Source of the DNA: an uncultured Tateyamaria sp.
Lineage (GTDB): Bacteria > Pseudomonadota > Alphaproteobacteria > Rhodobacterales > Rhodobacteraceae
Length of the DNA stretch: 64,000 nucleotides
Direction: 5' to 3'
NCBI RefSeq assembly: GCF_947503415.1
Contig: NZ_CANNDS010000002.1
Location: 62,001-126,000, forward strand
Every line of letters begins with the position of its first letter. Position 1 is the first letter of the stretch. The translations under genes were made by a program, and so were the position numbers. Under the pieces are notes generated by a model. It had not been told where the DNA came from. It did no database searches and was given only the letters and a program-made list of their open reading frames with translations. Below are positions 12,748-27,773 of this stretch, in pieces.

Positions 12748-12822
12748 TCCGGCGTAGCTCAGCGGTAGAGCAGTTGACTGTTAATCAATTGGTCGTAGGT
12801 TCGATCCCTACCGCCGGAGCCA
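12748..12822 (+). tRNA. tRNA-Asn (GUU)
   Basis: A complete 75-base tRNA with acceptor TCCGGCG/CGCCGGA, D-stem GCTC/GAGC, anticodon loop CTGTTAA with anticodon GTT, T-arm TTCGATC and encoded CCA. Its last 47 bases (12776-12822, from the anticodon stem to the CCA) are repeated exactly at 27727-27773, making it the attachment site of the integrated element. Integration left this copy intact. Confidence 0.98.
12776..12822 (+). repeat. Left attachment repeat of the element (47 bp)
   Basis: The 3' 47 bases of tRNA-Asn, identical to 27727-27773. Both flanking bases differ (t versus a before, a versus t after), so 47 bp is the full length of identity. Tyrosine integrases commonly use the anticodon-to-CCA half of tRNA genes as the crossover region. 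Confidence 0.95.
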
Positions 12823-12830
12823 AAGAATTC

Positions 12831-12864
12831 AAGGACTTAGCGCTCACCCGCTAAGTCCTTTTTC
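12831..12864 (+). terminator. Rho-independent terminator after tRNA-Asn
   Basis: A perfect 12-bp stem (AAGGACTTAGCG with CGCTAAGTCCTT, loop CTCACC) followed by TTTTTC. It ends tRNA-Asn transcription 9 bases after the CCA. It lies inside the element, beyond the attachment repeat, so the element supplied it; this would stop tRNA read-through into the element. Confidence 0.9.
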
Positions 12865-12947
12865 TTTCTGAGCACAGAATAAGTACAGAAAATACTGCCC
12901 GGATCGGTGTTTGTGGATCGCTTGTGACCCGTTGGCTTGTGCTTGCG

Positions 12948-13706
12948 CTAACTATCAGTCTCTAAACGCTTTTTCTCCTCCGCAGCATATTGTCGTAGAG
13001 ATTTTCCCTTTTCCTTGCGCTGAGTGGATCGGTGCAGTTCAAGACGTCCGGCAGTATTGAGCCCGATCTGCCAATTCCTTCGGGTCCAATACACTCCTTC
13101 GGCTACGTCGAGGTTGTCAGGGTCGATAGTCAGGTCGGCAGCACCCATATGCCGTTCCTCGTCTGTGATGGCCGGATTTGGCGAAGTCTGTTCATAGACG
13201 TAGGTAAGATGTATCCGCCCAGAGTGCTGATCCCGGTGGGGCTTCGCGGTAATCGAATGCGAACGCCCGTCAGTCGAACTGAGGCCAGCCTCGACCTTCA
13301 ATCGGAACAAGGAGGCCGTTACCTGAACGGCCATAGCATCCACCTGTTCTTGCGTTGAGTGCAACTCATCTTTGTCAATGACCGAGTAAGCCTGTGCCCC
13401 ATCCAGCATCTTCTTGATAGTCGGCCAGTTGGAGCCAGTTGTCCCAAGCCATACTCCATTCAGGTCAGGTAGCCATCTGTTGAGAGCGGGTATCCAGCGC
13501 CACACAATCCGCCAAGGTGCCCAGTAGCCGGTGGGTCCGAAAAAACCGGCGAGGAAACCCAAGAGCACGGGAGGAAGGTATCGGATGAGGTGCTGATCGG
13601 TCATCATAAAGCCCAACAGCAGACCAATGTCGTCGGCGTAAAGCGAGGCCGCCACAACCAACGCGACAGCGGAACCAATCCATCTCCAAGGCAACAGTGC
13701 ATACAC
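12948..13706 (-). CDS. Cap15-like CBASS effector (2TM plus beta-domain)
   Basis: A membrane protein with two N-terminal hydrophobic helices (about residues 9-24 and 41-60 from the chosen start) and a beta-rich soluble domain from about residue 75 (WLPDLNGVWLG, then alternating strands ending TAGRLELHR), plus a charged tail. This is the architecture of Cap15 (S-2TM-beta) effectors, which sense a cyclic nucleotide with a beta-barrel and disrupt the inner membrane. The GTG at 13706 is chosen: GGAGA lies 7 bases upstream, and it leaves 93 bases for divergent promoters. A longer frame to 13844 would overlap the nucleotidyltransferase gene. 252 residues. The call rests on architecture and neighbours. 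Confidence 0.75.
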   Translation of the reverse strand: MYALLPWRWIGSAVALVVAASLYADDIGLLLGFMMTDQHLIRYLPPVLLGFLAGFFGPTGYWAPWRIVWRWIPALNRWLPDLNGVWLGTTGSNWPTIKKMLDGAQAYSVIDKDELHSTQEQVDAMAVQVTASLFRLKVEAGLSSTDGRSHSITAKPHRDQHSGRIHLTYVYEQTSPNPAITDEERHMGAADLTIDPDNLDVAEGVYWTRRNWQIGLNTAGRLELHRSTQRKEKGKSLRQYAAEEKKRLETDS

Positions 13707-13799
13707 GATTCGTTCTCCGATTCTTTTCTGGCCCAATTCCCTTGAATTTCGTCGGCGCCCCCACCAGATAGAGGGGAACGACAGACGCAGGTGCGCAAA

Positions 13800-14909
13800 A
13801 TGTATGATTTCTCGAAGCAGATTTCCAGCTTTCATAACCAACACGTCCGGCTTAGCAACGACCAGCGCGCGGACATGAAACGCAGACGCGAAACCAATCT
13901 CGACCGAATCGAGAAGGGCCTAGAAGAACTGGAAAAGCCAGCCTTCAAAGAGACCATCAATCAAGGCGGTTACGCTCAAAAGACCATGACCCAAGCGCCG
14001 GAATCCGATCAGGAAAGCCGGTACGACATCGACCTTGGCATCGTTTTCGATCAGGACGATGCCAAGGGACCGAGAACCACCCGTGATTGGGTTCGCCAAG
14101 CAATCGCCCGCAAGGCGACGAATATGAAGAACGATCCGGTGACCAAGAAAAAGTGTGTCCGGGTTGTTTATGCGGACGGGTATCAGTGTGATTTTCCCGT
14201 ATTCCGTAGGCGCTGGACCGATGCAGGCTGGCGCTACGAACTGTCTTCGGGCGACGAGTGGGTTGCCTCCGACCCTGCCGCCATGAACCAGTGGATTGAG
14301 CGAGAGGTGTATTGGAAAAGCCCGGAGACTTCGGGCAGCTACCAGCTACGACGCGTCATCCGATTTGGTAAGTTCTTCTCGAAGACCCATGCCAAAAGGC
14401 TCAATAGGTCTTTTCCCGGCGGTTTGGTCGCTACCGCGCTATTCATCGAGTGTTACGCGGCAGACGACGGCCGTGACGACAGGTCCTTCCGTGAAACCCT
14501 TCGCAACCTGTCACTGCGTTCGAAATACACGCCCGTTTATGCCAACGGAGACCAAGTATCCGACGACAAGGATACCGACCGCATTGGGAGGCTGATCGAC
14601 CAAGCAAAGGACTCCGTAAAGGAACTCGACAAGCTCGACGCGGACGACACCACAGATTCAGACGCCAACAAGATTTGGAAGACCGTCTTCCGACATAGCC
14701 TTTTTGACGATGCTTCAAAGAATGCAGCAAACAGCTCCAGTGCTCCCCTTGAAACCAAGAGCGCTCTTGGTGGTGCGGGTCTGGCCGCACCGTTCCTAGC
14801 CTCGAAAGCAGCCGCCGCACTCTCAGATAGCGAAAAGCAATCGCGAATGGAGTCGGCGGTCAGCGCCCGGAAAGAGAGCGGGAGTGGTGGCAAACCTTGG
14901 GCGGAGTGA
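13800..14909 (+). CDS. CBASS CD-NTase (cGAS/DncV-like nucleotidyltransferase)
   Basis: A 369-residue nucleotidyltransferase of the CD-NTase (SMODS) family, which makes a cyclic oligonucleotide signal on phage infection. The active site is visible: GGY (residues 56-58) with the downstream T in AQKT, then DID (Asp76/Asp78) and a third acid in CDFPVF (Asp131). The spacing and the DFPVF strand resemble the DncV clade. The ATG at 13800 is preferred over GTG at 13791. The C-terminal 60 residues are Ala/Ser-rich and probably disordered. It overlaps the E2-like gene by 4 bases (GTGA). The nucleotide product cannot be predicted. Confidence 0.88.
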   Translation: MYDFSKQISSFHNQHVRLSNDQRADMKRRRETNLDRIEKGLEELEKPAFKETINQGGYAQKTMTQAPESDQESRYDIDLGIVFDQDDAKGPRTTRDWVRQAIARKATNMKNDPVTKKKCVRVVYADGYQCDFPVFRRRWTDAGWRYELSSGDEWVASDPAAMNQWIEREVYWKSPETSGSYQLRRVIRFGKFFSKTHAKRLNRSFPGGLVATALFIECYAADDGRDDRSFRETLRNLSLRSKYTPVYANGDQVSDDKDTDRIGRLIDQAKDSVKELDKLDADDTTDSDANKIWKTVFRHSLFDDASKNAANSSSAPLETKSALGGAGLAAPFLASKAAAALSDSEKQSRMESAVSARKESGSGGKPWAE

Positions 14910-15580
14910 CAATACCGAACGCCCTCTATTCTGAGGTGCAAGAGGCCGTAGCTCAGCATCAGCCAGAGCTGAGCGTTTCACGAACAGAAAGTCTAATTGT
15001 TCTTGAGGGTCAGTTCCTTGTTTGTGGACCCGATGGACCGGTCGATACGCCGGATGGGGTCTTCGATTCCTGCAAAATTAAGGCGGGAGTGACCGCGGGA
15101 TTTCCTACTGAGGAACCAGTCGTTTTCGAGACCGGAGGGCGTATTCCGCAGATCGCTGATCGCCATGTTTTTCCAGAGGATGGGAACTGCTGCCTAGGCG
15201 TATGGGAGGAGTGGTTATTGATGGCTCCGGATCATCGGTTTGAGACCTTTCTGACTGGACCGATGCACGACTATTTCGTCAGCCAGACCCACTTTGAAGT
15301 CAATGGCACATGGCCCTATGGTGAAAGATCACATGGCATTCTCGGCGTTTTAGAAAGCTATGCTGATCTTCTCGGGGTGCCCCCCGACGCAAAAATTATC
15401 ACAGACTATCTTCACCTGCTGTCTCGCCAGAAATTAAAGGGACACGCTTTGTGTCCTTGCGGTAGCGGAAAACGCCTTAGGGACTGTCACAGCGATGATC
15501 TTCGAAGGTTGAGCCAAAGAATTCCATCGTTTATGGCAAAGCGGATGCACGCCACGATCACACCACGAAAAGCCGCCTAA
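14906..15580 (+). CDS. E2-like CBASS accessory protein with SEC-C tail
   Basis: A 224-residue protein. The N-terminal part fits a ubiquitin-conjugating-enzyme (E2) fold of the prokaryotic type: FPTEEPVVFETGGRIP, then DRHVFPEDGNCCLG, where one of Cys95/Cys96 sits where the E2 catalytic cysteine is expected. The last third carries CPCGSGKRLRDCH (residues 183-195), a SEC-C zinc-binding motif. The GTG at 14906 overlaps the CD-NTase stop (GTGA), so the two are translationally coupled. E2-only CBASS loci lack the E1 and JAB parts, as here; such proteins act on the CD-NTase. The SEC-C fusion is unusual. Confidence 0.75.
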   Translation: MTIPNALYSEVQEAVAQHQPELSVSRTESLIVLEGQFLVCGPDGPVDTPDGVFDSCKIKAGVTAGFPTEEPVVFETGGRIPQIADRHVFPEDGNCCLGVWEEWLLMAPDHRFETFLTGPMHDYFVSQTHFEVNGTWPYGERSHGILGVLESYADLLGVPPDAKIITDYLHLLSRQKLKGHALCPCGSGKRLRDCHSDDLRRLSQRIPSFMAKRMHATITPRKAA

Positions 15581-15628
15581 GAAACTGCTGGGGTCGGCGA
15601 CCTCGAAGGCCGCCAACTGCAGAAAGGC

Positions 15629-16105
15629 CTAGTCCTTTGATTTCTTGCGCATCGGGACATCCACACCTTTTTTTCGCATAACAGCCGCAACAGATGCGAC
15701 TGAACGCGTATTGGTCTTAGCGTCGGGGAACTCGGCCACGACCTGATCCACAATCGCCGCATAGCCCAAATTCTCGTCCATCAGCAGCTTCTCAGTGAGG
15801 CGGCTGATCGTCAGCTTTGGCGTGCCGGTCTCGGCTGCACCCTCAGCCTCATGGTTCGCTTGCTCGGCGTCTTTGGTAGCCTCGGCCTTGGTCTCGTCGG
15901 CTTCGGTCGCACCGAGCTCTCTGACTTCGACAAAGACACTGCCCGGATGCTCGCCTTGCTTCTTTTGTGCGAGGTCAATACGCCCGCAGAAGCCCACGGC
16001 GGTCCAACCCTCTTTGCCTTCTTGAAGGACTGCATGGGAGTAGGTTCGGTCCGTCTTGCGGGTGTGTTCTGATCCGTCTGGGGCAATTGCAACATAGGTG
16101 GTCAT
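15629..16105 (-). CDS. Hypothetical protein with acidic linker and basic HTH-like C-terminus
   Basis: A 158-residue protein not assigned to a family. Residues 1-65 form a small domain (MTTYVAIAPDGSEHTRKTDR...); residues 70-105 are an Ala/Glu/Thr-rich linker; residues 105-150 are helical with a possible DNA-binding arrangement (ISRLTEKLL, YAAIVDQVVAEFPDAKTNTRSVASVAAVMRKKG) ending in a Lys/Arg tail. The start at 16105 has AAGGAGA just upstream. It lies between the CBASS-like locus (convergent) and the DUF6119 gene (divergent). It may regulate or serve the element; this is inference. Confidence 0.7.
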   Translation of the reverse strand: MTTYVAIAPDGSEHTRKTDRTYSHAVLQEGKEGWTAVGFCGRIDLAQKKQGEHPGSVFVEVRELGATEADETKAEATKDAEQANHEAEGAAETGTPKLTISRLTEKLLMDENLGYAAIVDQVVAEFPDAKTNTRSVASVAAVMRKKGVDVPMRKKSKD

Positions 16106-16276
16106 CGCAGGTCTCCTTTTCAGCTTTGATGATCCTATGTTGTCGGGAAGCAGACTCCCCGCGAACCCCCTGAAAATATGGAAAAATGCCATTGTTAATT
16201 CTCAGGCAGAATTTGCTCAAACTCACATTGTATTCTTCGCACAACGAGGTACCATCGAAGCATTTGGAGGCCTCCT

Positions 16277-17953
16277 TTGCCGCGAGTAAAACACTACCAA
16301 TTCAACATGCGCCTACTCCGAGCAGGACGAACCGCCGCAACCGCATTTGGACCAAGCTTTGCACCGGGAGAACCCCGCGAACTTGAACAACGGCCTTGGG
16401 AAAGTATTGACGGCGCGACCCTCTATGTTGGTCAAATTTACAATAACCCGCCAGGCTGGACAGACTTTATTCGAACCGGCAGCCCTGATCTTCCTGGCGA
16501 CCTGTTTGCCAGTGGTGCTGGTGCCGTTCTGTTTGTGCCAAGTGGGGGAAGGATACTAGCGATCTGTTTCGGTCATGTGCACATCGCATTAAATGATGAC
16601 GCATTCGTTAGGCAATTCGGCCTGAAAGTCACACTCAATGCAGTTTCACGCGAGAAACTACGCAGTTTGGACACGGCAACACCTGATGCCGTGACTGTTC
16701 AAAAGCGGGTTCAAACCAGCAAGGATAGCGACCTACAAGCATTCGGTGTCGATATGTATCGAGACCTTGCAAGGGTTGCGGCAGGCACGCCTAGAAACAA
16801 GGACTTCGCACAATTTGTAGCTGGCAAGGATGCCCTGAAAGTAATTGCAAAGGACAAACCTGACCAAGTGCAAGCGCTTTGTGACCGAATGCTGGCTATG
16901 TATCTCCTAGAGGATTACAAGGCAGATTTTTCTTGGGTTGATCGTATGCAGATGGTCTCCGAAAAGGACGTGATCGCCCAGTTAGACGAAAAGCTATTTG
17001 AAGCGCTGGACAAATTGCGAGCGGGAGAGAACGCCGACCTGCACATGTCGCCCCCAGAAATCGTCGATTACACTGAGGGGAATCAGCTTCACTACAATGG
17101 CTTCGGAAGTAATGGCTCCGATTTTGAAAGCCTCTCGATAGAGGATTACGTTGCTGAGCTTAATCGGTGCGAGTTTGACGGTGAGGTGATCGAACTCAAA
17201 GAAAAGCACTACATCTCGGCAAAGAAAGACAACGAAGAGAAGTTCGATCAGAAATGGAAAGTTTATGACTGCTTCATTTTCGAAACCTCTCTTGGGGAAA
17301 ACGGCAACGAAAAACACTACGTGCTGTTTGCAGGGTGCTGGTATTGTGTCGATCAGGACTTCAAGGCCGAAGTAGATGAGGCTTACGACGCCCTCGAGAA
17401 AGTTAATATCGTGGGGCCGACCACGTGCTTGAACGAACGAACTCTAATCGAAGAGCTTGTGAATACCCGTGACGATCTTCTGAAACTGGACCAACAGAAG
17501 ATCAACCCGAAAGGTGTAAAATACGGCAACTTGGAGCCATGCGATTTCTTCTCCGCATCGCGCGAATTCATCCACCTCAAAGACGGACATTCGTCCGGAT
17601 CAATAAGCCATCTGTGGTCTCAGGGAGTTGTGAGTGCTGAAGCGTTTTTGACCGATCACGATTTTAAGGTGAAACTTCGTAGAATTGTCAAAAGTGAGAG
17701 CGACAAAAAGGCAGGCGGCACGGTGTTTGAGGAACTTTTGCCGATGGCGGCTCAAAAGCCCATTCGAACAGACTTCAAGGTAGTGTACGGCATAATGAGG
17801 AAACCATACAAAGACGGATCATTGGGTTTGCCGTTTTTCTCCAAGGTCAGTCTGCAAGCCGCCGTCAAACGACTGGAAGAGTTCGGCATTCCCGTTGCGT
17901 TGGAGCTCATTCAAAAGCCCGCTTCAGATGCTGAGGCTGGCGAAGACGAGTAG
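16277..17953 (+). CDS. TIGR04141/DUF6119 sporadically distributed protein
   Basis: A 558-residue protein matching what I recall of the TIGR04141 (DUF6119) family: a start of the type YQFNMRLLRAG, a GAVLFVPSGGRILAICFGH strand pair, then LKVTLNAVSREKLRSLDT and a KRVQTSKDSDLQAFGVDMYRDLARV segment typical of the family. The family is patchily distributed among mobile elements; its function is not established. The start is TTG at 16277, supported by GGAGG 6 bases upstream. A+T-richer than the core genome. Its presence beside CBASS-like and Shedu-like genes suggests a defence role, which is inference. Confidence 0.8.
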   Translation: MPRVKHYQFNMRLLRAGRTAATAFGPSFAPGEPRELEQRPWESIDGATLYVGQIYNNPPGWTDFIRTGSPDLPGDLFASGAGAVLFVPSGGRILAICFGHVHIALNDDAFVRQFGLKVTLNAVSREKLRSLDTATPDAVTVQKRVQTSKDSDLQAFGVDMYRDLARVAAGTPRNKDFAQFVAGKDALKVIAKDKPDQVQALCDRMLAMYLLEDYKADFSWVDRMQMVSEKDVIAQLDEKLFEALDKLRAGENADLHMSPPEIVDYTEGNQLHYNGFGSNGSDFESLSIEDYVAELNRCEFDGEVIELKEKHYISAKKDNEEKFDQKWKVYDCFIFETSLGENGNEKHYVLFAGCWYCVDQDFKAEVDEAYDALEKVNIVGPTTCLNERTLIEELVNTRDDLLKLDQQKINPKGVKYGNLEPCDFFSASREFIHLKDGHSSGSISHLWSQGVVSAEAFLTDHDFKVKLRRIVKSESDKKAGGTVFEELLPMAAQKPIRTDFKVVYGIMRKPYKDGSLGLPFFSKVSLQAAVKRLEEFGIPVALELIQKPASDAEAGEDE

Positions 17954-18080
17954 AACATTCTCTCATATCTGATATTTAGTCAGATGGGTCGAGCATCATA
18001 ACTTATTGACCTGCTCTGATATTTTGTGAAATCGGCTCAAAAAACACTGCGTCTAGTACTGCTTAATGGACCGAATTGGC

Positions 18081-18106
18081 CCCGCCCAGCATTTACGCCG
18101 GGCGGG
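18081..18106. other. Strong hairpin between DUF6119 and next gene
   Basis: CCCGCCC and GGGCGGG pair perfectly, with a further GC/GC inner pairing, in the stretch between the two converging genes. No T-run follows on either strand. It may act as a bidirectional transcription barrier. The rest of 17954-18149 shows nothing I can identify. Confidence 0.4.
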
Positions 18107-18149
18107 ATCGTCGCATCTAGGCTGGTTCTGCGAAAACACGGGCAATGAG

Positions 18150-18482
18150 TTAGCTGCGATACCTGCCACGAACAGCATATTCTCCACCGTTTTCAGAGAA
18201 AGCCATATTATTGAAGGCAGACGCGTTGGTTGCCAACTTGGCAAATTGGGCCAGACCGCTGGGCAACTTTCTTTGGGCTTTAGCTAAGATATGAGAAGCC
18301 AGCAAGACGACTTTGAATGCGTTGGCTGGATCATCAGATAGGTTTGGATCATCGGCTATAACCGCCGCTAGGTCCATGGCCGCGCGAACATGGGGGCGCC
18401 GATACCCAAGTTCTGAACGCGCTTCACAAATGGCGTCCTTCAGCTTAGCGGTGCGAATGGTGTTTTCGGATACGAGTTCCAT
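18150..18482 (-). CDS. Hypothetical protein, 110 aa
   Basis: A 110-residue protein I do not recognise. It is mostly helical by composition (IRTAKLKDAICEARSELGYRRPHVRAAMDLAAVIADD). The ATG at 18482 has AAAGGAGA 6 bases upstream, a strong ribosome binding site, which supports expression. No membrane segment or motif is seen. It lies within the run of minus-strand genes of the element. Confidence 0.65.
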   Translation of the reverse strand: MELVSENTIRTAKLKDAICEARSELGYRRPHVRAAMDLAAVIADDPNLSDDPANAFKVVLLASHILAKAQRKLPSGLAQFAKLATNASAFNNMAFSENGGEYAVRGRYRS

Positions 18483-18641
18483 AGGTAGTCTCCTTTTGAT
18501 TGATAGGAGCCCTATGTGTGATCCTTCAAAGTTAAGCCTTTTACTCCGTGCGGTGTGCAAAAGTTTACGCAACACCGAAACAGAAGAAGGCCCCCAGCCA
18601 ATTTCTGATGAGGGCCGATAGTATTCTGACTTTATTGGTGT

Positions 18642-18881
18642 TTAGGCGTTCAGGCGTTCGTGTGAGTCGGCCACATCCATGCTGGTGATGCCGCCGCGTT
18701 CAAGCTCCTGGGCGTCATTGCGAATTTGCATCAGCACCTTACCCATGTCGGTATCAAGCGCCCGCAAATAGGCCTTCTCGAAGGTTTCCCCGTCCTGCTG
18801 CATCGACTTTGCCAGCTTATCCAGTTCCGCCTCTGCGGCTTCACGATTTTGTCCTGCGGCCTTCCGCACATCTTTAGTCAT
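18642..18881 (-). CDS. Coiled-coil hypothetical protein, 79 aa (downstream part of a split frame)
   Basis: A 79-residue helical protein beginning MTKDVRKAAGQ. GAGGAG lies 7 bases before the ATG at 18881, so it can be translated alone. The same frame is open upstream to an amber codon at 18963-18965, beyond which it continues as the 43-residue frame 18963-19094. The intervening codons also encode heptad-like coiled coil, so this is probably the C-terminal part of a once longer protein of about 150 residues. Function unknown. Confidence 0.6.
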   Translation of the reverse strand: MTKDVRKAAGQNREAAEAELDKLAKSMQQDGETFEKAYLRALDTDMGKVLMQIRNDAQELERGGITSMDVADSHERLNA

Positions 18882-18962: not shown

Positions 18963-19094
18963 CTAGGCCAGTTCAGCGACTTCCTGGGCTTCTGCTTCAT
19001 CACGGGCCAGCCGCATCAAAGCGTCTTCCAAGTCTTTCTTGCGTGCTTCCAGCCGTGCCAATTCAGCGGCGTGGCGTTGTCCTTCTTGGCTCAT
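18963..19094 (-). pseudogene. N-terminal fragment of coiled-coil gene, ended by in-frame TAG
   Basis: The ATG at 19094 overlaps the stop of the upstream 219-aa gene (ATGA), a classic coupled start. It encodes 43 residues of coiled coil (MSQEGQRHAAELARLEARKK...) and stops at TAG (18963-18965). Directly after the TAG the same frame reads EVEQLENQVETARATAK and runs without a stop into the gene ending at 18642. A single base change from GAG, CAG or AAG to TAG would explain it; read-through is the alternative. Confidence 0.5.
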
Positions 19095-19750
19095 CGTGTG
19101 GCCTCCATCTCTTTCAATTCGGCTTGCGCCTCGCGGGACACGTAGGGTTGCGGGGACGATGCCTTGATGCGGAGCAATTCCACCCGGAGGCTTTCGGCCA
19201 CCCGTTCCTCAGCATCGGCAAGAGAAACGGCGTGGCGTTCCCGGATCGGGGTATCGATGCCAAAGGTGCGGGCGAGCTTGACGCCGCCTGACTGGATCAG
19301 AGCTTTCACCAGGGGTTCGGCAGCCCGATTGTTCGTAAGTGCCCGCTCCACGGCAGTCAGATCGCCACCGGCACCCGAAACCTGCCCAACGTCTTTCCGC
19401 AACGCATCCGCATAGGCATCCCACGAGGACGTTAGGGCATTGAGGGCTTCGTCCACCGCAACAGCGAGCTTGGCCCTCTTGGAGGTGGCATCAAGCGCAG
19501 TCTCGGCGCGACGCCGGCGGTTGTTCCGTTCAGCGCTGGCATTTGCGGCGCACTGGCGCTCGTTCAGTTCAACAAGGGCATCGTCAACGATAGAGATGCG
19601 CTCGGCCAATGCGGCAGCAGTTCCACCCGGTTTCTTTCCGGCAATTATGGCGTCACGGGCTTCGGCGCGGGCATTTTGGAGTTCACCGGTTAGGCGTTCC
19701 CGCTCGGATTGTAGGTCGGCAATCCGTTTGCCCAATTCATTCTTGTCCAT
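19091..19750 (-). CDS. Coiled-coil hypothetical protein, 219 aa
   Basis: A 219-residue protein with an N-terminal coiled coil (ELGKRIADLQSERERLTGE..., to about residue 95) and a more globular C-terminal half containing a hydrophobic segment around LVKALIQSGGVKLARTFG. I do not recognise a family; the layout could suit a structural or remodelling protein of a phage satellite but there is no direct evidence. Its stop overlaps the start of the next small gene by 4 bases. Confidence 0.7.
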   Translation of the reverse strand: MDKNELGKRIADLQSERERLTGELQNARAEARDAIIAGKKPGGTAAALAERISIVDDALVELNERQCAANASAERNNRRRRAETALDATSKRAKLAVAVDEALNALTSSWDAYADALRKDVGQVSGAGGDLTAVERALTNNRAAEPLVKALIQSGGVKLARTFGIDTPIRERHAVSLADAEERVAESLRVELLRIKASSPQPYVSREAQAELKEMEATR

Positions 19751-19930: not shown

Positions 19931-20311
19931 TCAGGCTTCGCCCATCAGGTCGAGTTCCATTTGCCGGATAAGATCGGTTGGAACGCCGGGATTATTCAGA
20001 AATTGGCCAGGGTTATCTTTCAGGTCAGACCGGTAAGAGCGCCAACATTTTGCGTTGGGGCAATCAACATCTCTTTCGATAAATGCCCGCATTGCCGGTG
20101 TCACCCATCCGCGGGGAAAGGCCATGCTGCCGTGAACGTAATACATACCAGCCAAAAGGCGGACAGTGTTTGATCTCATGGTAAGATTTGGAAGCGGCGG
20201 AAAGTCATCCAGTGCTTCGGCCACCAGTTCCTCTGCAAGTTCCTGAGTTTTGGAATACTGATGCGCGGGCAAAGGCGGGACTGGCCGGGTGCTGCTCTCT
20301 TGCGCTTGCAT
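19931..20311 (-). CDS. Hypothetical protein, 126 aa
   Basis: A 126-residue protein with a Pro-rich N-terminus and a conserved-looking core (LTMRSNTVRLLAGMYYVHGSM, RGWVTPAMRAFIERD, CPNAKCW). Two nearby cysteines (CPNAKC) might bind metal but there is no second pair. No family is recognised. It sits between the Shedu-like gene and the coiled-coil genes, same strand, as part of the element's minus-strand cargo. Confidence 0.6.
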   Translation of the reverse strand: MQAQESSTRPVPPLPAHQYSKTQELAEELVAEALDDFPPLPNLTMRSNTVRLLAGMYYVHGSMAFPRGWVTPAMRAFIERDVDCPNAKCWRSYRSDLKDNPGQFLNNPGVPTDLIRQMELDLMGEA

Positions 20312-20525: not shown

Positions 20526-21326
20526 TCACTTCCGTACCCTAATCGTTTCAGATGCCTTGACCCAAGAATCAACGCGTTTTCCGTTTTGCATCGACACTTG
20601 TTTTGGCGCGACAGAACCTGCCTTCAGAACGTCATGCAATGCCTTGCTCACCCGTAAATGCGTAGGTTCCATCCATGCTACCATTTGGCCATCACAGATT
20701 TCATCACCAAGAACATCGATAAACTCGTTGTGTCGCACCCCGATATTCAAAGCGCAATTTCCGTTCAAGTTTTCCGCCAGACTGTCGAATGACATGATCT
20801 TGAAGTTAGGGGTTTCATACGACTTAACCAGTTGCTTTCGCTGTGGACTATTTTCTATTTCGGCCCTACGCCCATGTACTAATATGAACTTGAACGTAGT
20901 GGGGTGTCTTGCCATGTGTGCTGGAACCTGCAGTGTGCTCAACGATGCTAGAAATCCAGCCGCGTTGGCTTGGTCGTTTAACCAAGCCTCCCAAGTCTTT
21001 ATCTGGTGGATGGCTTTCTGAAATTCCGAACTGATTTCGTTGCTATTGGGCTTAAAATAGCGGGAAGATGGCTTCTCTATCTCAATGAGGACAGCGTGCC
21101 AATCGATGCTGCTTTTCGAGAAAAAGAAGAAATCTGATTTGTAATCGGCACCAAATGGCAATTTTCGAAGAACGAGTCCAAAATGAACGCCGTGATTTTG
21201 CACGAACATCCGCGGAATCAATCCCGTATGTTGCTCAATAAAGTCTTGATAAACTTGCTCTTTGTGCTGCTCGTCAAGCAAGCTGAGATACTGGGACTTA
21301 AGGTCCTCGTTGGTTGAAGTGCTCAT
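20526..21326 (-). CDS. Shedu-type (DUF4263) putative anti-phage nuclease
   Basis: A 266-residue protein of the DUF4263/SduA type. The core reads YQDFIEQHTGLIPRMF, then YKSDFFFFS (Asp65), LIEIEKPSSRYF (Glu82, Glu84, Lys85) and AIHQIKTWEAWL, matching the PD-(D/E)XK-like layout of Shedu nucleases. The exact ExK lysine is not clear: the motif here is EIEKP. Shedu proteins are single-gene phage-defence nucleases. There is no N-terminal sensor domain of large size, so it is a short version. The gene is distinctly A+T-richer than flanking core genes. Confidence 0.82.
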   Translation of the reverse strand: MSTSTNEDLKSQYLSLLDEQHKEQVYQDFIEQHTGLIPRMFVQNHGVHFGLVLRKLPFGADYKSDFFFFSKSSIDWHAVLIEIEKPSSRYFKPNSNEISSEFQKAIHQIKTWEAWLNDQANAAGFLASLSTLQVPAHMARHPTTFKFILVHGRRAEIENSPQRKQLVKSYETPNFKIMSFDSLAENLNGNCALNIGVRHNEFIDVLGDEICDGQMVAWMEPTHLRVSKALHDVLKAGSVAPKQVSMQNGKRVDSWVKASETIRVRK

Positions 21327-21540: not shown

Positions 21541-21828
21541 TTATTGGTCCTCAAAATAGGGCGTGGCCACGATCCATTCCACCAATTGAGTGCGGGTTTC
21601 ATCGTCAAGGTCCTTGCGTCTTTCGACTGCCCCGATTGCTTCGTCTCTCACCTTTGCGGATTGCCAGGGAACGGGATCATGTCCGGCACTCATCTCGGCC
21701 AGCACCCCATCGTCTGGGTCATGCAGATAGCCCAAGCAGATGCGCATGGTCACGCCGCCATCGGCAAATACCACGGTGGCAACGCCGCCAGGTCGTACCA
21801 GGTTTATCTGATTAATCGGATCAGTCAT
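21541..21828 (-). CDS. Hypothetical protein, 95 aa
   Basis: A 95-residue protein starting MTDPINQINLVRPGG, with a beta-rich start and a helical C-terminal half (DDETRTQLVEWIVATP). The ATG at 21828 overlaps the stop of the terminase-small-like gene by 8 bases, implying co-translation. No family recognised. Confidence 0.6.
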   Translation of the reverse strand: MTDPINQINLVRPGGVATVVFADGGVTMRICLGYLHDPDDGVLAEMSAGHDPVPWQSAKVRDEAIGAVERRKDLDDETRTQLVEWIVATPYFEDQ

Positions 21829-22462
21829 CAGATGTTCCCCCGGTCTCCTGTGGCGTCCCCTGGACGACTTCGGCGTCAATCGTGTCGTGTCGTTTATCCG
21901 AGACCATTTCGGTTACCACGGGCTTCCGTACAGCCCCTTCCGGCTGAACCAGCTTGGGTTTGGCTGGCAAGGAGGTTTGAACGCTCGTAGAATTGTTGAT
22001 CTGGACATTGGTCTGGGCGGGTCCATCCACAGAACTCATCCGCAGAGATAGGAGCTTGTTCAAGACACGGGGATCGACGCTCGCCGTCTCGAAACGGTAA
22101 ACCGACTCGAAGTCGTCATCCAACTCAGGTTCACCCGTTTCAGGATCGAAGCACTGAACCCATTTGCCAGTCCCCATCTCCAAGGCCGTCTGGACCACCC
22201 GCATGGTCAATTCTTCTTCGAAAGCTGCCAGGGCCTCGTCCCATGCTTCTGCAAAGTCAGGATGCTTCGCACGCCGGTCATAGAAGGTTCGCCGGGTCAG
22301 GCCAGTCATGTTCGCCGCATAAGTGATGTGACCGAACTGACGGAGATAGAGCAGAAACTCGTCGCCCTTCTCGCCGTAGATCGGGCGGGTAATCGCTGCA
22401 ATCTTGGAAGGCATCCGCGGGTCGCTGGCCGGTTTGATCCGGTTCATCCTCATCAAGCTCAT
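21821..22462 (-). CDS. Terminase small subunit-like HTH protein
   Basis: A 213-residue protein with an N-terminal helix-turn-helix region (FLLYLRQFGHITYAANMTGLTRRTFYDRRAKHPDFAEAW) followed by a helical segment ending in a disordered acidic/Thr-rich tail. The HTH plus the KHPDFAEAW-type follow-on is what phage small terminase or phBC6A51-like proteins show. In satellites a small terminase redirects packaging of helper capsids. No large terminase is in the window. The start among closely spaced ATGs (22462, 22453, 22447) is not decided. Confidence 0.65.
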   Translation of the reverse strand: MSLMRMNRIKPASDPRMPSKIAAITRPIYGEKGDEFLLYLRQFGHITYAANMTGLTRRTFYDRRAKHPDFAEAWDEALAAFEEELTMRVVQTALEMGTGKWVQCFDPETGEPELDDDFESVYRFETASVDPRVLNKLLSLRMSSVDGPAQTNVQINNSTSVQTSLPAKPKLVQPEGAVRKPVVTEMVSDKRHDTIDAEVVQGTPQETGGTSDD

Positions 22463-22793
22463 TGTGGTGCCTATTCTGTCTTCGTCACTGTGCTTGGCTG
22501 AGGTAGGCGCCGATTAAGCCCTTGAAGTCATTCATGCCCCAGACGCCAGAACGCCCAACTCGGTATCAATGGGACGGCCTGTCTGTGCGGGTTGACGACT
22601 TCGGATTTTTCCACGGACAGCATCCTCGTTGCCGTTCGAGGTCAGAATGTCATGTTCCGTTGGAGCCGTATGCCAGCGATTTACAAGGGAGTGTGCCGGC
22701 TCACAACGTTGCGCAGTCCCGTTCTTCCAAGCTGGAAGAGTTCTACGTCAACAAGGCGTTTTCGGAGCCATATGTAACATATTGTTTTTATTG

Positions 22794-22813
22794 ACTTGTT
22801 GACGATGTTGAGC
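22794..22813 (-). repeat. Iteron-like inverted repeat, left arm (20 bp)
   Basis: Exact reverse complement of 22928-22947; the arms are separated by 114 bases. Confidence 0.9.
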
Positions 22814-22927
22814 GTCGTTGAACGTTTTCGCTATATATATCCGGATTGCACTTGGCCCTGTGTCCTGGTCAGTGCCCTATGCCTGATCGGCTTATTCTAC
22901 CAAGATAAATTACTTTAAGCTCAACAT

Positions 22928-22947
22928 GCTCAACATCGTCAACAAGT
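22928..22947 (+). repeat. Iteron-like inverted repeat, right arm (20 bp)
   Basis: Exact partner of 22794-22813. The first 15 bases beyond the leading G recur in direct orientation at 22993-23007. Confidence 0.9.
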
Positions 22948-23044
22948 GTTCCGAAACAAGGCCTTAGGCGCGTCGCGCTTAGATCAACGAAACTCAACAT
23001 CGTCAACGCCGTGACCGAAATACTGCGCTCCGATATGCAGAGCA

Positions 23045-25324
23045 CTACTCATCAGGAGAATGATACCCTGCTGATACACGGCCACCAAGCCTGACGCCCC
23101 TGCTGTATTTCCACCCCAGAACTTCCATAGCCCGCCTTAGACGCTGCGCATGGCCCTTATTCTGCCGGTCGCTCTCTAGGCCAAGGTAGCTGAGCAGGTC
23201 TTGGGTATGCACTTTGTCTGCTAGAGGAGGCTCACGCAACGGCGAGGCAACCTGCCCCCCTTCGATCATTTCCTCAGCATAGTCACCCGTACCGTTCTCA
23301 AAGGCCTGCCGTTCCGCTTTTCGGTTGCTGAGCATGTCGGCCAGTTTATCGACCCAAGGATCATCAACGGTTTCGTCAGCTTGACGCTCTGCGGCCATCG
23401 ACCACAACTGCTCGGGCAAAACGTGACCAACGCCCGACTTGAACAATGAGTCAGCCTCAGCCCAAAGTTGGTCCCGGTGCTCATCAATCCAGTCCAGATC
23501 AACCCTGGAACCCGGTGCCATCTCCAAAGGCCAAAAACGCCGAGCGCCAGTGGGGTCACTCAAGTATCCGCCTTCGTTTACAGTGCCCGCAAATACCACA
23601 CGGCGTTGATGATCCTCGGTGTTGCGACCATAGGGCGTCCGATACCTGTCTGTGGCTCGGGACATAAACGCTTTGAGAACGTCCATGTCACTTGCCCGAA
23701 GACCGGCCAATTCGGCAAACTCGTGGACCCAGACACCTTCAAGGTTCATGGCTGCATCTTTGTTCCGAAGATCGCCAAGCTCTGCGTCACTGAACCAATC
23801 CGGTGAAAACAGGTCCCGAATGCCGGTAGATTTCAGAGAACCTTGAGGCCCCTTGATGACTGGCATCGTGTCCAGCTTGCAGCCCGATTGCCTTTGACGA
23901 GCCACGGCACCGACCATAAAGCACTGTGAGACAGCTTCTGTGTAGTCGTCCCGGCGACACTGAAAGGCGTCTGTGAAGAGGTCCTTTACCCGGCTGGTTC
24001 CATCCCAGGTCAAGCTATCCAGATAATCAAGGATCGGGTTGAATTTGAAGAAATAGGCAACAGTTGTGATTGCGTCCTGAACGTTTTCCTTTGACGGCTG
24101 GTAGTCCTTACGTTGGTGCTGTTCCATCAACCATGTGCGAGCCAACAAGAGCAGCTTGTCAGTCAGCACACGGCCATAGTCTTCACCCCAAGGCAGTTCG
24201 CCCATCAGGACGACACGCTGCTTGAGTTCATCAAATCGAGGATCAAGCTTGGAGCCGTTGATTGCCTTGAGGGCGTTCTTGGCCGTGTCGGGTGCAACGC
24301 CAGTATTCTTATTGACGGCCAAACCACCTTCATGCACTGGCCGTCTTTTGGGAACGGTTATTGCGTTTGTAGAAAGGTCTTCCAGGTCGTCTTCGAAGTC
24401 CTCCGCAGCGGGTGTCCTCGGAATGGCATCCTCGACGCCTGCGTCTCGCAGCAGCTTGTGAAGGGTACGATACGTCACACGAGGGCCCTTGGCGTCAGCG
24501 TGCAAGCTATCCCAACGCAACCCGATCAGATTGCCATCATCCGCATATGCGGGGTCTTGGGTGCACCAGTCCACAAACTCCTGACGACCGTCCCCCGCCG
24601 TTGCATGGTGGCAGGCCTGCATCAAAGTCAGCCAATTGTCGTGGTCAGAAAAGTCGGCAGGATCAAGGTGCACAAGCATCTGCGCCAATTCCTCCTGATC
24701 ATGCTCACCCCCGCCAGTTGCCACGCTGCCTGATGGTCTTCGGATCAGATCGACAAGGGCCTTGGGAGCAGCCTCGGCACCGAAAGCGTCAAGCTCGGGC
24801 GTGTCGGCTTTCCAGGTGTAGGTTTTCTGGCTATCGGGATGGATCGAACCAGGGGCAACGACCTGACGACCAACCGTCTTGAACTCAATGCCGGGAAACT
24901 GATCGTTCAGGCTGTCTCTGGTGGAAACGTCCTTTGGCTTAGTCATGTAGATATGCAAGCCACCCGAGCCTGTTTCAACGGTCGAATAGAGGTCCGGGTC
25001 CATGCCAGTCCAAAGAACCAGTTCGACAAACGGATTGATTGGGGACGCCAAAGTTTGGCCGTCAGGAAACGCCCGTGGGTCCACATCCAAGACCAATTCA
25101 AAGGGACGCAGACGAACGCCGACGTTGTTCCCCGCGTCCATGTGTTTGATTTGGTCCTCGGATTGATAGGGACGCTTCATCCAGTTGCTGTCGATCGGCG
25201 ATTTGCCCCGTTTGCGTTTCTTGCCCTTGACCTCATCTTCAGCCGAGAACCTATGCAAAGGCAGAAGCTGGTATCCGCTGGCCAGCAAGGGCATCAGTTG
25301 TGACGCATCGGTATGAACACCCAT
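23045..25324 (-). CDS. Prim-Pol primase / VapE-type helicase replication protein
   Basis: A 759-residue multidomain replication protein. The N-terminal part (about 1-200) is a bifunctional primase/polymerase domain with the acidic DVD pair (Asp80/Asp82, ELVLDVDPR) and GSGGLHIYM; a PriCT-like helical domain follows (about 220-300); the C-terminal half is a VirE/VapE-type P-loop ATPase with Walker A GPQGSLKS (492-499) and HEFAEL. Such proteins start and drive replication of phages and satellites. The ATG at 25324 is preferred over an upstream GTG and nearly abuts the previous gene's stop (25326). It lies beside the repeat-rich candidate origin. Confidence 0.9.
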   Translation of the reverse strand: MGVHTDASQLMPLLASGYQLLPLHRFSAEDEVKGKKRKRGKSPIDSNWMKRPYQSEDQIKHMDAGNNVGVRLRPFELVLDVDPRAFPDGQTLASPINPFVELVLWTGMDPDLYSTVETGSGGLHIYMTKPKDVSTRDSLNDQFPGIEFKTVGRQVVAPGSIHPDSQKTYTWKADTPELDAFGAEAAPKALVDLIRRPSGSVATGGGEHDQEELAQMLVHLDPADFSDHDNWLTLMQACHHATAGDGRQEFVDWCTQDPAYADDGNLIGLRWDSLHADAKGPRVTYRTLHKLLRDAGVEDAIPRTPAAEDFEDDLEDLSTNAITVPKRRPVHEGGLAVNKNTGVAPDTAKNALKAINGSKLDPRFDELKQRVVLMGELPWGEDYGRVLTDKLLLLARTWLMEQHQRKDYQPSKENVQDAITTVAYFFKFNPILDYLDSLTWDGTSRVKDLFTDAFQCRRDDYTEAVSQCFMVGAVARQRQSGCKLDTMPVIKGPQGSLKSTGIRDLFSPDWFSDAELGDLRNKDAAMNLEGVWVHEFAELAGLRASDMDVLKAFMSRATDRYRTPYGRNTEDHQRRVVFAGTVNEGGYLSDPTGARRFWPLEMAPGSRVDLDWIDEHRDQLWAEADSLFKSGVGHVLPEQLWSMAAERQADETVDDPWVDKLADMLSNRKAERQAFENGTGDYAEEMIEGGQVASPLREPPLADKVHTQDLLSYLGLESDRQNKGHAQRLRRAMEVLGWKYSRGVRLGGRVSAGYHSPDE

Positions 25325-25325
25325 T

Positions 25326-25565
25326 TCAAGCCCCCGCACGTTTGGCGTTGTAGGCCTCGATCACAGAACGTTCATAGAAAACGGCTGTTCCGATCTTCAC
25401 GTAATCAGGACCGGCATTCTTGTATTTGGTGTTGTTGCGGCGGTTGCGAAAGGCCATCAGCGAAGTTGCAGGATGCCCGGTCATGGCCGCGGCTTCCTTC
25501 GTCGTCAGAAGGTCTTTCAATGGTGTGCCAAAAGGCTTGGGGGCGTTATCTTCGTTCTTAGGCAT
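25326..25565 (-). CDS. Small HTH DNA-binding protein
   Basis: A 79-residue protein with a MerR/AlpA-like winged HTH (LLTTKEAAAMTGHPATSLMAFRNRR, then VKIGTAVFYERSVIEAYNAKRAGA). The final helix with a conserved YERS-type strand is typical of excisionase or AlpA-type regulators. It precedes the primase gene and may control it. This is the second such protein in the element. Confidence 0.78.
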   Translation of the reverse strand: MPKNEDNAPKPFGTPLKDLLTTKEAAAMTGHPATSLMAFRNRRNNTKYKNAGPDYVKIGTAVFYERSVIEAYNAKRAGA

Positions 25566-25747
25566 GGCAGGCCTCCTATGTGCTAAAGTATCGACCGGAT
25601 TGCCTCAGCCGCTCAGCATGGCAATCCGGTCTATTGATCAGAACAATACCGCGCCCAAATCCCCCCGCATACCAACACTTGACCCGCACGCAACGAACGC
25701 TAGTGTAAGGAATTCTATAGGCTGACCTTCAAAGCTGACCGTGGGCT

Positions 25748-26170
25748 TTACCAGTCGCCTCTGTATGGCCGAAGACCAGGGCGTCGTCCCGTTGGCCGAT
25801 GTGGCTGACCCGGCTGGATCGCCCGTTTCTTTGCAAGATTGATGAGGTCACGGTCATTCCAAAAGAGACCGAGCGTCGAATGTTCCAGCGCAAATCCCGG
25901 CTGCGAGAATAACAGCGGTCCATCAGAAGCTTCGATTTCACGCGGCGTGTAGCCAATCGGGTAGACGTCAGCGTGGACAGCGATGGTCCAAAGTGTCATT
26001 GGGTCGAACGGTCCCCAGCCGACCGAGGCACAGCCTTCCGTCAGATCACGGTGGAAAATGCCGGTCGTTTCCAGTTCGCAGGCCTTGAGAACCGCAAGCT
26101 CTATCTTGGCAGCTTGTTCGGGCGATACGCCCTTTCCTTGCCAATCATCCATTTCTGTCTGGTGGGTCAT
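25748..26170 (-). CDS. Hypothetical protein, 140 aa
   Basis: A 140-residue protein, with ATGA coupling to the AlpA-like gene upstream (ATG at 26170 overlaps that stop). The middle reads LTEGCASVGWGPFDPMTLWTIAVHADVYPIGYTPREIEA; the C-terminus is basic and Pro/Arg-rich. No family recognised. Position suggests an element maintenance or regulatory role. Confidence 0.6.
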   Translation of the reverse strand: MTHQTEMDDWQGKGVSPEQAAKIELAVLKACELETTGIFHRDLTEGCASVGWGPFDPMTLWTIAVHADVYPIGYTPREIEASDGPLLFSQPGFALEHSTLGLFWNDRDLINLAKKRAIQPGQPHRPTGRRPGLRPYRGDW

Positions 26171-26355
26171 GCGGCCCCCGACATCATGAAAGCGTCAAGG
26201 TCGTCACGGTGGTAACGAACAATCCGGCCAACGGTTCGGTAAGACGGACCAGTGCCTTTGCTACGCCAATTGTGCATGGTGCCAGGCGAGACTGAAAGGT
26301 ATTTGGCAGCGGCCTCGGTTGTCATCCAAGGGGTGTCAGTTTGTGGGTTGCTCAT
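26167..26355 (-). CDS. AlpA/Xis-like HTH regulator
   Basis: A 62-residue helix-turn-helix protein (WMTTEAAAKYLSVSPGTMHNWRSKGTGPSYRTVGRIVRYHRDDLDAFM), a textbook excisionase/AlpA (HTH_17) domain. AlpA-type proteins switch on excision or the replication module of satellites. The ATG at 26355 is chosen because the domain starts there; the upstream extension to 26421 has no similarity. It lies directly downstream of integrase on the same strand. Confidence 0.88.
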   Translation of the reverse strand: MSNPQTDTPWMTTEAAAKYLSVSPGTMHNWRSKGTGPSYRTVGRIVRYHRDDLDAFMMSGAA

Positions 26356-26371
26356 GCTGATAACTCCAAAA

Positions 26372-26389
26372 TCCAAATGCGTCCAAATG
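26372..26389. promoter_or_regulatory. Candidate operator: TCCAAATG direct repeat
   Basis: TCCAAATG occurs twice with a 10-base period (26372-26379, 26382-26389), 17 bases upstream of the AlpA-like ATG. One helical turn spacing suits two HTH units on one DNA face. Confidence 0.35.
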
Positions 26390-26461
26390 GACAGCGATGA
26401 AATCAGGTTATCAGCTTGCAACGTCTTGATATGCCAACGAGTTAAGGCATCGTACCATCAT

Positions 26462-27586
26462 TTACGCAACGCCTGCCTTGGCCAAGACCAAATCCTCTAA
26501 GGCTTGAGAATGGGGCCGAAGGGCTTCCACCAAATGCGTCTGATGCACATACCCGCCAGAAGCTCCTGGAAGCCGTTGACCCAACAGAAGCGCCCCTTCT
26601 GCATATGGCACACCAGCAGCAATCATCATCGTTCTGGCATGGTGGCGAAGTGCATGCGGAGACGGAACACCAGCCCGCTTTGGCTCGGCAACGTGGCCTG
26701 TGGCTGACCTAGGTGACGGCCAAAGCCAGGGCGAGTTAAGAGGCTCGTCTTCCTTCATTCTGGCCTTCAAGGTTTCGGTCAACCAGCGACCGGTTGGGAA
26801 GGACCAAGCTCCACCCGTTTTCATGTGGGTGAAAGTCAGCACGCCCGCCTCGGCATCGAAGTCGGCACATTTCACGCCAAGCAGAGACGTTCTCCGTGCA
26901 CCCGTCAAAAGGAACGTCCGTTGCATGTCACGCATCAGGGGAGACATGGCTTCGGTCGTGGACCAGAAATCGGCCATGTCCAATTCCCCGACTTCCCGTT
27001 TCGGGGTTGCAGGGACACGAAGGGCATCAACGGGGTTTGCCCCAATCGTTTCGTCATGGCGGCGGGCCGTATTCACAAGAGCTCGGACAGTGCGCATGAC
27101 TGAACCACCCGTGGTCTTGCCGTGACGCTTTGTGAGCTGGTCCATAAGCTCTCGGCATTCCTGACGCGTAATGTCAGCCACGGCACGACGCCGAAGACGC
27201 CCGAGGTAGTTGTCCATATGGTACTGGTAATTCCTGACCGTGGCGTCGGACAGTTCACGTTCCTTCAAGTGCTCTTTCAGGGCTTGTTCCAACGTGATGC
27301 CGGTGGGCTCCGGCCCCGCCGTGGGATCGACGCCAGACTGGATCGTGGCCATGAGTTTTCGAGCCTCGTTCCTGGCCTCAGCCAAACGGATATGGTCAGC
27401 CCGTCCGATCTTGACCCTTACAGTTCGAACGTGCCGCTTTTCCCGGCGGACGTCGCTTTGAACGGCAAAGGTCTTGCAGGTCTTATGGCAGATGCACATC
27501 AGCCCCTTCACATCGGTATCCCGATGGATGCCCGAGCCAAGTGAGAGGTCCCTGATACGGGCCTCGGTGAATTTGAATATGGTCAT
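26462..27586 (-). CDS. int: Tyrosine site-specific integrase
   Basis: A 374-residue phage-type integrase. An N-terminal arm-binding domain (about 1-90, DUF4102-like) and a SAM-like core-binding domain (98-185) precede the catalytic domain, with Arg231 (LLTGARR), HxxR at His311-Arg314 (SPHALRHH) and the nucleophile Tyr346 (GGYVHQ). It would recombine the 47-bp tRNA-Asn site. It is the last gene before the right attachment repeat, transcribed away from it. Confidence 0.95.
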   Translation of the reverse strand: MTIFKFTEARIRDLSLGSGIHRDTDVKGLMCICHKTCKTFAVQSDVRREKRHVRTVRVKIGRADHIRLAEARNEARKLMATIQSGVDPTAGPEPTGITLEQALKEHLKERELSDATVRNYQYHMDNYLGRLRRRAVADITRQECRELMDQLTKRHGKTTGGSVMRTVRALVNTARRHDETIGANPVDALRVPATPKREVGELDMADFWSTTEAMSPLMRDMQRTFLLTGARRTSLLGVKCADFDAEAGVLTFTHMKTGGAWSFPTGRWLTETLKARMKEDEPLNSPWLWPSPRSATGHVAEPKRAGVPSPHALRHHARTMMIAAGVPYAEGALLLGQRLPGASGGYVHQTHLVEALRPHSQALEDLVLAKAGVA

Positions 27587-27726
27587 GGAAAGTACAGTCC
27601 CGAGTACAGCGTTTGCGATTGATCCAGGTGGGCCTGGATGGTGCTACCGGGATGATATTGCTATGTTTTCAAGGGGTCGTACGCCCTGAATGAGGCCAAA
27701 TGGACCATGATTTACTCGCAATCGCA

Positions 27727-27773
27727 GACTGTTAATCAATTGGTCGTAGGTTCGATCCCTACCGCCGGAGCCA
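27727..27773 (+). repeat. Right attachment repeat (tRNA-Asn 3' fragment)
   Basis: Exact 47-bp copy of the tRNA-Asn 3' part, lacking the acceptor 5' strand and D-arm, so not a functional tRNA. It marks the right end of the element. Confidence 0.95.

Follow-up and report, generated by a model that had tools for sequence, protein, structure and literature searches.

A 14,951-bp element bounded by repeats of a tRNA-Asn gene in an uncultured Tateyamaria sp. is, in our reading, an integrated phage satellite of the phage-inducible chromosomal island (PICI) kind; on its sequence, we put the probability of this assignment at about 0.8. The element lies in a 64,000-nucleotide stretch of contig NZ_CANNDS010000002.1 (hereafter, the window), and its features are collected in Table 1. 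Comparison of sequences reveals a bounded insertion, genes of replication and packaging type, purifying selection, spread between hosts and swapping of cargo. The original prediction, in which the element was proposed to be a satellite that serves as a vehicle for defence genes, is supported: a core shared by 14 elements, narrow sizes, a PICI-type origin, absence from congeneric genomes, selection and spread all indicate that the PICI-like lineage is mobile and that its defence cargo can be swapped.

A bounded insertion at tRNA-Asn

The 47-bp direct repeat of tRNA-Asn that had been proposed to bound the element was borne out, with 47/47 identity between the two copies; the length of 14,951 bp is measured from repeat start to repeat start. 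Attachment repeats and a cognate integrase gene are both present, as is typical of PICIs, and relatives of the element carry the same repeat. The GC content of the element, calculated in 1-kb steps, was 48-60% (mostly 50-56%), and that of the nearest flanks was 57-62%.

A search for the neighbourhood of the tRNA-Asn gene succeeded in all 20 genomes of the genus, among them the element's own (the best match in G216 spanned only 125 bases). Ten congeneric regions around tRNA-Asn were examined, and the element was missing from all of them; the whole stretch is therefore not part of the core genome. A comparison with related genomes in which tRNA-Asn is unoccupied, also suggested in the original prediction, revealed clear empty sites at two loci, L074 (genome G212) and L078 (G202), where the aligned sequence restarts ~20 bp past a single tRNA-Asn, at window positions ~29553-29557. 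We conclude that positions 27774 to ~29553 are accessory DNA outside the repeat-bounded unit. A single repeat copy was found within ~10 kb in seven of the ten regions, two copies were found in L075 and L076, and L077 contained a 45-bp copy beside a different integrase gene. Nothing beyond weak integrase or primase matches to the element was detected in L076 and L077. In L079, ~5.3 kb of other DNA precedes the resumed homology, and downstream homology to the window was absent from L072, L073, L080 and L081; the sites of these loci are thus not proved empty.

Other DNA was also found at this site. In congener G199 (L077, C7:1-7988), an element with an integrase gene, a primase gene and a TerL-like gene ends in the same tRNA-Asn repeat and may be a capsid-forming PICI (cf-PICI)-like element or the end of a prophage; PICIs are expected to occupy att sites that prophages do not use. 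An integrase, a DNA methylase and an Abi-alpha-like protein are encoded at the same repeat in L075 (G201 C1), and the repeat is occupied in L076 (G213 C5), with a weak integrase match. The non-syntenic window DNA at 27774-29553 contains what looks by eye like a short fragment of an integrase gene and a gene of old-yellow-enzyme type, and is probably the residue of an older insertion.

A family of elements with a conserved core

A scan of genome contigs with a profile of the small terminase-like protein, TerS, returned 18 loci, 16 of them with TerS identities of 54-96% and two distant. Among 394 genomes drawn from the window's family, TerS was found in eight, two of these matches being distant. 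In 14 integrase-bearing elements (the one in the window included), the int, AlpA, xis1, TerS, g10, g9, g8 and g7 genes follow in the same order, and a primase or helicase gene is located between xis1 and TerS in all 14. Integrase relatives with 67-97% identity were present in 13 other elements. The repeats are derived from tRNA-Asn in most elements, from tRNA-Thr in L019 and L022, and from tRNA-Cys in L018.

Eleven complete copies with both repeats, the window's included, measured 13,779-15,693 bp (mean 14,878, standard deviation 641), i.e., around the 15 kb expected of PICIs; this count leaves out copies at contig ends (L010, L012, L013), partial copies (L021, L023, L024) and distant ones (L025, L026). 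Total sizes had a variance of 0.41 million and summed segments one of 1.46 million; total length thus varied less than that of independently shuffled segments (permutation test, p = 0.0025).

At the DNA level, the element was 93.7% identical to that of Tritonibacter mobilis (L009) over int-alpA, 87.5% from xis1 to g10, 82% over g9-g7, and 90.2% from the DUF6119 gene to the CBASS (cyclic-oligonucleotide-based anti-phage signalling system) genes. Three such stretches were present in the element of Thalassovita gelatinovora (L010), with identities of 94.0, 86.6 and 82.8%. By their record names, the L009 and L010 hosts belong to different genera, so at least one of them is not of the window's genus. 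A 5-kb segment of the window chromosome aligned with the genomes of these hosts in pieces only (69-80% identity), and over its length with two congeners (83-86%). The dN/dS ratio was 0.05-0.25 in 13 core gene comparisons with computable dS (several dS values are above 1 and therefore rough); it was 0.07 for TerS compared with L009, and was saturated in four comparisons (g9 and g10 versus L011 and L019). The higher identity of the elements than of the chromosomes, together with the low dN/dS, indicates that the element moved between genera and that its core genes, TerS included, are maintained under purifying selection.

Several loci stand apart from this set. L088 (G308) and L090 (G403) harbour distant relatives, with TerS 33-46% and PrimPol 33-43% identical, which suggests a wider satellite group. 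L023, in Paracoccus onchidii, contains a truncated TerS gene and g10 near tRNA-Asn, with no int or primase gene detected there, and is possibly a remnant. The contig of L014 (JAFKDC010000022, G002) is titled Enemella evansiae, yet its genome is classified within the same family as the window; either a wrong label or a mixed assembly seems to be the cause.

Gene content

The gene calls of the original prediction held in family scans, and one conserved gene, g10, had been missed. When 16 element genes were compared with Pfam, and 10 of them also with PHROGs, no structural or conjugation family besides TerS was matched at E <= 0.001, as had been predicted and as is expected of a PICI, which has neither structural nor lysis genes of a phage. 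The product of g8 had a weak, unsupported tape-measure match (0.017, PHROGs), and no match to it was found in 50,697 phage records or in plasmids. Whether g7, g9 and g10 are exclusive to such elements was assessed through PHROGs only, with PDB profiles used in addition for g9 and g10. Profiles of TerS, g8, g9 and g10 returned no credible relative among solved structures, and the whole element had no near match in plasmids. The g4 relative in L014 matched PHROGs of unknown function at 2e-5.

Genes from int through g4 are located on the minus strand, as is the CBASS effector gene, with the DUF6119, CD-NTase and E2 genes on the plus strand; the core genes thus run in one direction, as in PICIs. 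The AlpA/MerR-type regulator of Gram-negative PICIs is predicted to be represented by the PF12728 protein (Table 1). A cf-PICI encodes capsid and packaging proteins of its own, TerL among them, and no genes of this set were found among the element genes scanned. Capsid-redirecting genes had no match in the family scans made of the element. Cpm genes belong to Staphylococcus aureus pathogenicity islands (SaPIs), and none of this type turned up in the same scans, no search having been aimed at them.

A putative replication origin

The non-coding stretch at 22463-23044, between the primase and TerS genes, had been described as repeat-rich, and the repeats proved to be inverted TGTTGA iterons with a 9-bp period. 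Iteron clusters at 22794-22821 and 22919-22947 are inverted with respect to each other (20 bp perfect, 114 bp apart), and a further copy is located at 22984-23007. In the excerpted text of PMC6092414, a PICI origin lies 3' of the replication gene and consists of two iteron sets that flank an AT-rich spacer. The putative origin of the element has this layout, its AT-rich part being weak.

Among 14 satellites, the strongest exact-hexamer period was 9 bp in nine and 8 bp in three (L011, L017, L019); no convincing exact-hexamer period was seen in L016 and L020. For the nine, the 9-bp count was reached by Markov resamples in at most 1 of 1000 cases. A stricter test, for inverted tandem pairs, was passed by 6 of the 14 satellites. 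By eye, iteron motifs seem to track the type of helicase.

Relation to RDJL-type phages and a candidate helper

A search of roseobacter phages for a helper, called for in the original prediction, yielded a lead to the RDJL roseophages through PrimPol, TerS and the iteron plan. Over residues ~10-312, the element primase shared 67-70% identity with the primases of RDJL6, RDJL Phi 1 and RDJL Phi 2, phages of 62-64 kb. In a PrimPol tree of 19 rows, the three RDJL sequences nest inside the satellites, grouping with L019 (97/97), then with L022 (98/99), and then with the window group (96/96); an earlier PrimPol tree had resolved little. The 19-row tree drops L013, L016 and L017 (unrelated N-termini) and RcRudolph (long branch); L088 is in neither tree, and L012 and L090 were not included. 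Helicase halves were of one type in the window, L009, L010, L015 and L018 (73-98% identity), and of another in L011, L019 and L020 (75-85%). Compared with phages, identities of this half were 37-49% for L013, L016 and L017, and 34-41% for L022. No match to the full primase query was found in viral contigs. A primase alignment used as the query gave four matches there. Two of these agree in length and identity with RDJL Phi 1 and Phi 2, and the other two are RDJL-like: L101, which also encodes DNA polymerase, TerS and TerL, and L100, in which the primase alone was seen. The small gene ahead of the phage primase genes was considered as an xis1 counterpart and rejected.

When run on the reading frames of RDJL6, RDJL1 and Tedan alone, the TerS family profile picked the TerS of RDJL6 (2e-8) and RDJL1 (3e-8) and, weakly (0.0025), a frame just upstream of TerL in Tedan. 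Single-sequence TerS searches of plasmids and viral contigs returned nothing, nor did a two-sequence profile in viral contigs. In phages DLP4, QDWS359, Donnerlittchen, phiH2 and DoCa5, ~630-750 bp in which no protein gene is annotated follow the primase gene. The next gene is annotated as TerS in three of the five and as hypothetical in Donnerlittchen and phiH2; the phiH2 gene was matched by RDJL6 TerS. In RDJL6, the primase gene extends to 30836, iterons are located near 34.4-34.7 kb, and TerS starts at 38027. The inverted-tandem-pair test was passed by RDJL6, RDJL1 and Tedan, with motifs unlike those of the satellites, and failed by the DLP4 and RcRudolph stretches tested. The hexamer period was 8 bp in DLP4 and QDWS359, weakly 9 bp in Donnerlittchen and DoCa5, and 12 bp in phiH2. 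According to the relevant sections of PMC3070671, RDJL Phi 1 is lytic and organized like YuA and M6, both called temperate there, and its TerL belongs to a P22-like headful cluster. The host genome contains one Terminase_6N match (G000 C4).

From these sequence relations, we put at about even odds that the helper is an RDJL-type siphophage or its kin (56-65 kb). A broader and more tentative proposal, to which we give somewhat less than an even chance, is that alphaproteobacterial PICI-like satellites live off lytic RDJL-type roseophages, trading replication modules with them and sharing a 9-bp origin plan with private iteron sequences and one headful terminase. On this proposal, the position of RDJL PrimPol within satellite diversity, the swapped helicase halves and the separate iterons would mean that satellite and helper use replication machines of the same type with private address codes. 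In the cycle proposed for the element as a PICI-kind satellite, infection by a helper would switch it on through AlpA-type control, and the integrase would excise it. The PrimPol-helicase would open the cognate iteron origin and produce concatemers, and satellite TerS would mark satellite DNA for the large terminase of the helper, leading to headful packaging into helper shells, normal or remodelled. Once injected into a new cell, the element would re-enter tRNA-Asn, and CBASS, Shedu and perhaps DUF6119 would guard the host against other phages. A role of g7-g10 in capsid-size control or interference is a guess.

Alternative explanations

A number of observations weigh against the satellite assignment or against the choice of helper. 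Helper dependence, induction, packaging and transfer are what we infer for the element; we observed neither its induction or circular form nor particles or transfer. Four core genes (g7-g10) are without known function, and the AT-rich part of the origin is weak because the spacer is only 57% AT. When only the cargo slots were considered, constancy of size was non-significant (n = 8, p = 0.36), and the elements compared are relatives of one another. As to the helper, the helicase half of the window primase had no close phage relative, and an approximately unbiased (AU) test did not reject satellite PrimPol sequences as one clade (p = 0.248). TerS is a distant relative of RDJL6 TerS (29% identity over 127 aa), had no match in single-sequence tblastn against the 50,697 phage records (E 0.01), and its profile missed the TerS of DLP4, RcRudolph and L101. 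The gene order of RDJL6 is the same, but other genes separate its primase, iterons and TerS, with ~7 kb between primase and TerS. Finally, a search for RDJL6 TerL in 16 genomes that carry an element or part of one (the L014 host not included) gave no match, a result compatible with a lytic helper without showing one; as a control, the same query found RDJL1, RDJL2 and Tedan and missed RcRudolph, DLP4 and phiH2.

The AU result, the distant TerS and the spacing in RDJL6, along with the variation of primase types between elements, would also fit a satellite of the same kind whose helper is temperate or unrelated, the PrimPol likeness to RDJL phages being due to old or incidental gene exchange. 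This contends with the helper claim only, and we regard it as a real possibility, if short of an even one; yet TerS family, PrimPol, gene order and origin plan all point to one phage group. A decayed prophage of the RDJL/YuA kind, stripped of structural genes and reduced to a home for defence genes, would likewise account for the PrimPol homology and for the primase-gap-TerS order. It is, however, very unlikely, given that a compact core recurs in 14 integrase-bearing elements from many sources, that this core is under purifying selection, that sizes are confined to 13.8-15.7 kb, and that g8 lacks relatives in phage records. The known defence genes of the element (cargo slots 1 and 3) and of its relatives are what one would expect of a stay-at-home defence island, in which TerS and primase serve as decoys, jamming the packaging or replication of phages, with rare movement by general transduction or natural transformation; StCI satellites are mobilisable by natural competence, according to PMC13376191. 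Such an island would hardly be expected to keep the integrase and both helix-turn-helix (HTH) genes in 14 of 14 elements, to retain the origin pattern, or to occur as repeat-bearing copies in hosts of different genera, and we consider it improbable.

Comparison with known satellites

An integrated PICI-like satellite remains the preferred reading, and the closest parallels are Gram-negative PICIs such as EcCICFT073 and PmCI172. As described in the excerpts of PMC6092414, they share with the element int, AlpA and primase genes, a size of ~15 kb, an iteron origin immediately 3' of the replication gene, a lack of structural genes, core genes in one direction and, in some, TerS. Unlike the PICIs in these excerpts, the element has a PrimPol in common with RDJL-type phages, a TerS belonging to the family found in such phages, four core genes that have no known relatives, and Rhodobacterales hosts. 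Phage-inducible chromosomal minimalist islands (PICMIs), as far as the excerpts of PMC10803314 go, are also marine, contain int, AlpA and primase genes with defence cargo, and have a virulent phage as helper. They differ in integration at fis, in the 6,110-bp size of the type element and in that no terS homologue was found by their authors, whereas the present family is located in tRNA genes (tRNA-Asn for the element itself), is ~15 kb long and has a TerS-like gene. SaPIs, in the parts of PMC6092414 concerned with them, are similar in size (~15 kb), in having their own TerS in some cases and in an origin of two iteron sets, and differ in Stl/Rpr control, as opposed to AlpA in the element. RDJL roseophages (Xiamenvirus), Tedan and Mesyanzhinovviridae/Pamexvirus phages share PrimPol and the primase-then-TerS order, and three roseophages (RDJL6, RDJL1, Tedan) also share 9-bp inverted iterons; all of them differ in being complete 56-65 kb phages with structural genes. 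We take the Mesyanzhinovviridae/Pamexvirus phages to be kin of YuA.

No description of phage satellites in Rhodobacterales or Rhodobacteraceae was found in the literature searched, which excluded subscription papers; papers that mention phage satellites together with Roseobacter, Alphaproteobacteria or Ruegeria/Tritonibacter, judged mostly by title, did not seem to concern such elements. Phage satellites in Rhodobacterales seem to be undescribed so far. PICI-like satellites as such are known, and what is new here is the helper lead to RDJL roseophages (PrimPol, TerS, gene order, iteron plan). If correct, the present reading names a satellite family and a testable class of helpers, of which phages have been isolated (RDJL), as well as a path that takes CBASS, Shedu, ThsB-like and restriction genes from one genus to another.

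Features of the element and its cargo

Table 1. Features of the tRNA-Asn element (window positions)
Feature	Position	Strand	Family match or occurrence
Intact tRNA-Asn (gtt)	12748..12822	+	first att repeat at 12776-12822 (its last 47 nt)
Cargo slot 3, CBASS: Cap15-like 2TM effector	12948..13844	-	PF18153; PDLC00674 2e-117
Cargo slot 3, CBASS: CD-NTase	13791..14909	+	PF21654, PF18144; PDLC00783 2e-100
Cargo slot 3, CBASS: E2-like protein with SEC-C motif	14897..15580	+	PDLC00861 4e-71; PF02810
g4, conserved	15629..16192	-	9/14 integrase-bearing elements
Cargo slot 2: DUF6119	16277..17953	+	PF19614 2e-138; relatives in L009, L017
g6	18150..18575	-	one relative, L020
g7, conserved	18642..18881	-	15 aligned copies
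g8, 219 aa, conserved	19091..19750	-	coiled-coil-like by eye; 15 aligned copies
g9, conserved	19931..20311	-	14/14 integrase-bearing elements
Cargo slot 1: Shedu SduA	20526..21326	-	PF14082 1.3e-23; PDLC00378 3e-87
g10, 95 aa, conserved, overlaps TerS end	21541..21828	-	window and 16/16 loci searched; no Pfam match
Small terminase-like protein (TerS)	21821..22462	-	phrog_4044, 4e-9
Putative replication origin	22794..23007		TGTTGAnnn iterons, 9-bp period
PrimPol + PriCT_2 + VapE-helicase replication protein, 764 aa	23045..25339	-	Pfam, PHROGs
xis1, second HTH/excisionase-like, directly upstream of primase	25326..25565	-	weak HTH_17 (0.026), phrog_2655 (0.0012); 14/14 integrase-bearing elements
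g14, conserved	25748..26170	-	no family match; relatives in 8/16 loci searched
AlpA-like HTH_17 regulator (predicted)	26167..26421	-	PF12728 2e-13, phrog_66; 14/14 integrase-bearing elements
Tyrosine integrase, 374 aa	26462..27586	-	PF13356, PF02899, phrog_1
Second att repeat	27727..27773	+	47/47 identical to 12776-12822

The predicted CBASS-like, Shedu-like and DUF6119 cargo was confirmed by Pfam for all three and by PADLOC for CBASS and Shedu; the DUF6119 gene had no PADLOC match. An SduA domain is predicted in the Shedu protein, and the CBASS genes comprise a CD-NTase, an effector and an E2-like protein, a set that we take to be of type II-short.

The cargo of relatives was surveyed by scanning 20 of their larger open reading frames (ORFs), a subset of all, with PADLOC and Pfam. 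The greedy gene caller also picked antisense ORFs, so some of the 20 may be no genes. Fourteen of them matched PADLOC or Pfam, and six did not (those of L009, L012 and L016, one of L017 and two of L015). The matches include a C5 methylase and ThsB-TIR in L014, a D12 methylase and a DndB/DpdB-like protein in L011, restriction enzymes in L017 (NaeI-like), L018 and L022, GmrSD-like and HEPN proteins in L019, a PLD/DrmC-like protein in L010, an SNF2 helicase, a weak PDC-M38A match and MUG113 in L020, and DUF3800 in L022. Slot 1 differs between otherwise alike elements, with Shedu in the window versus a 284-aa ORF of unknown family in L009. By these comparisons, defence cargo is swapped between relatives of the element.

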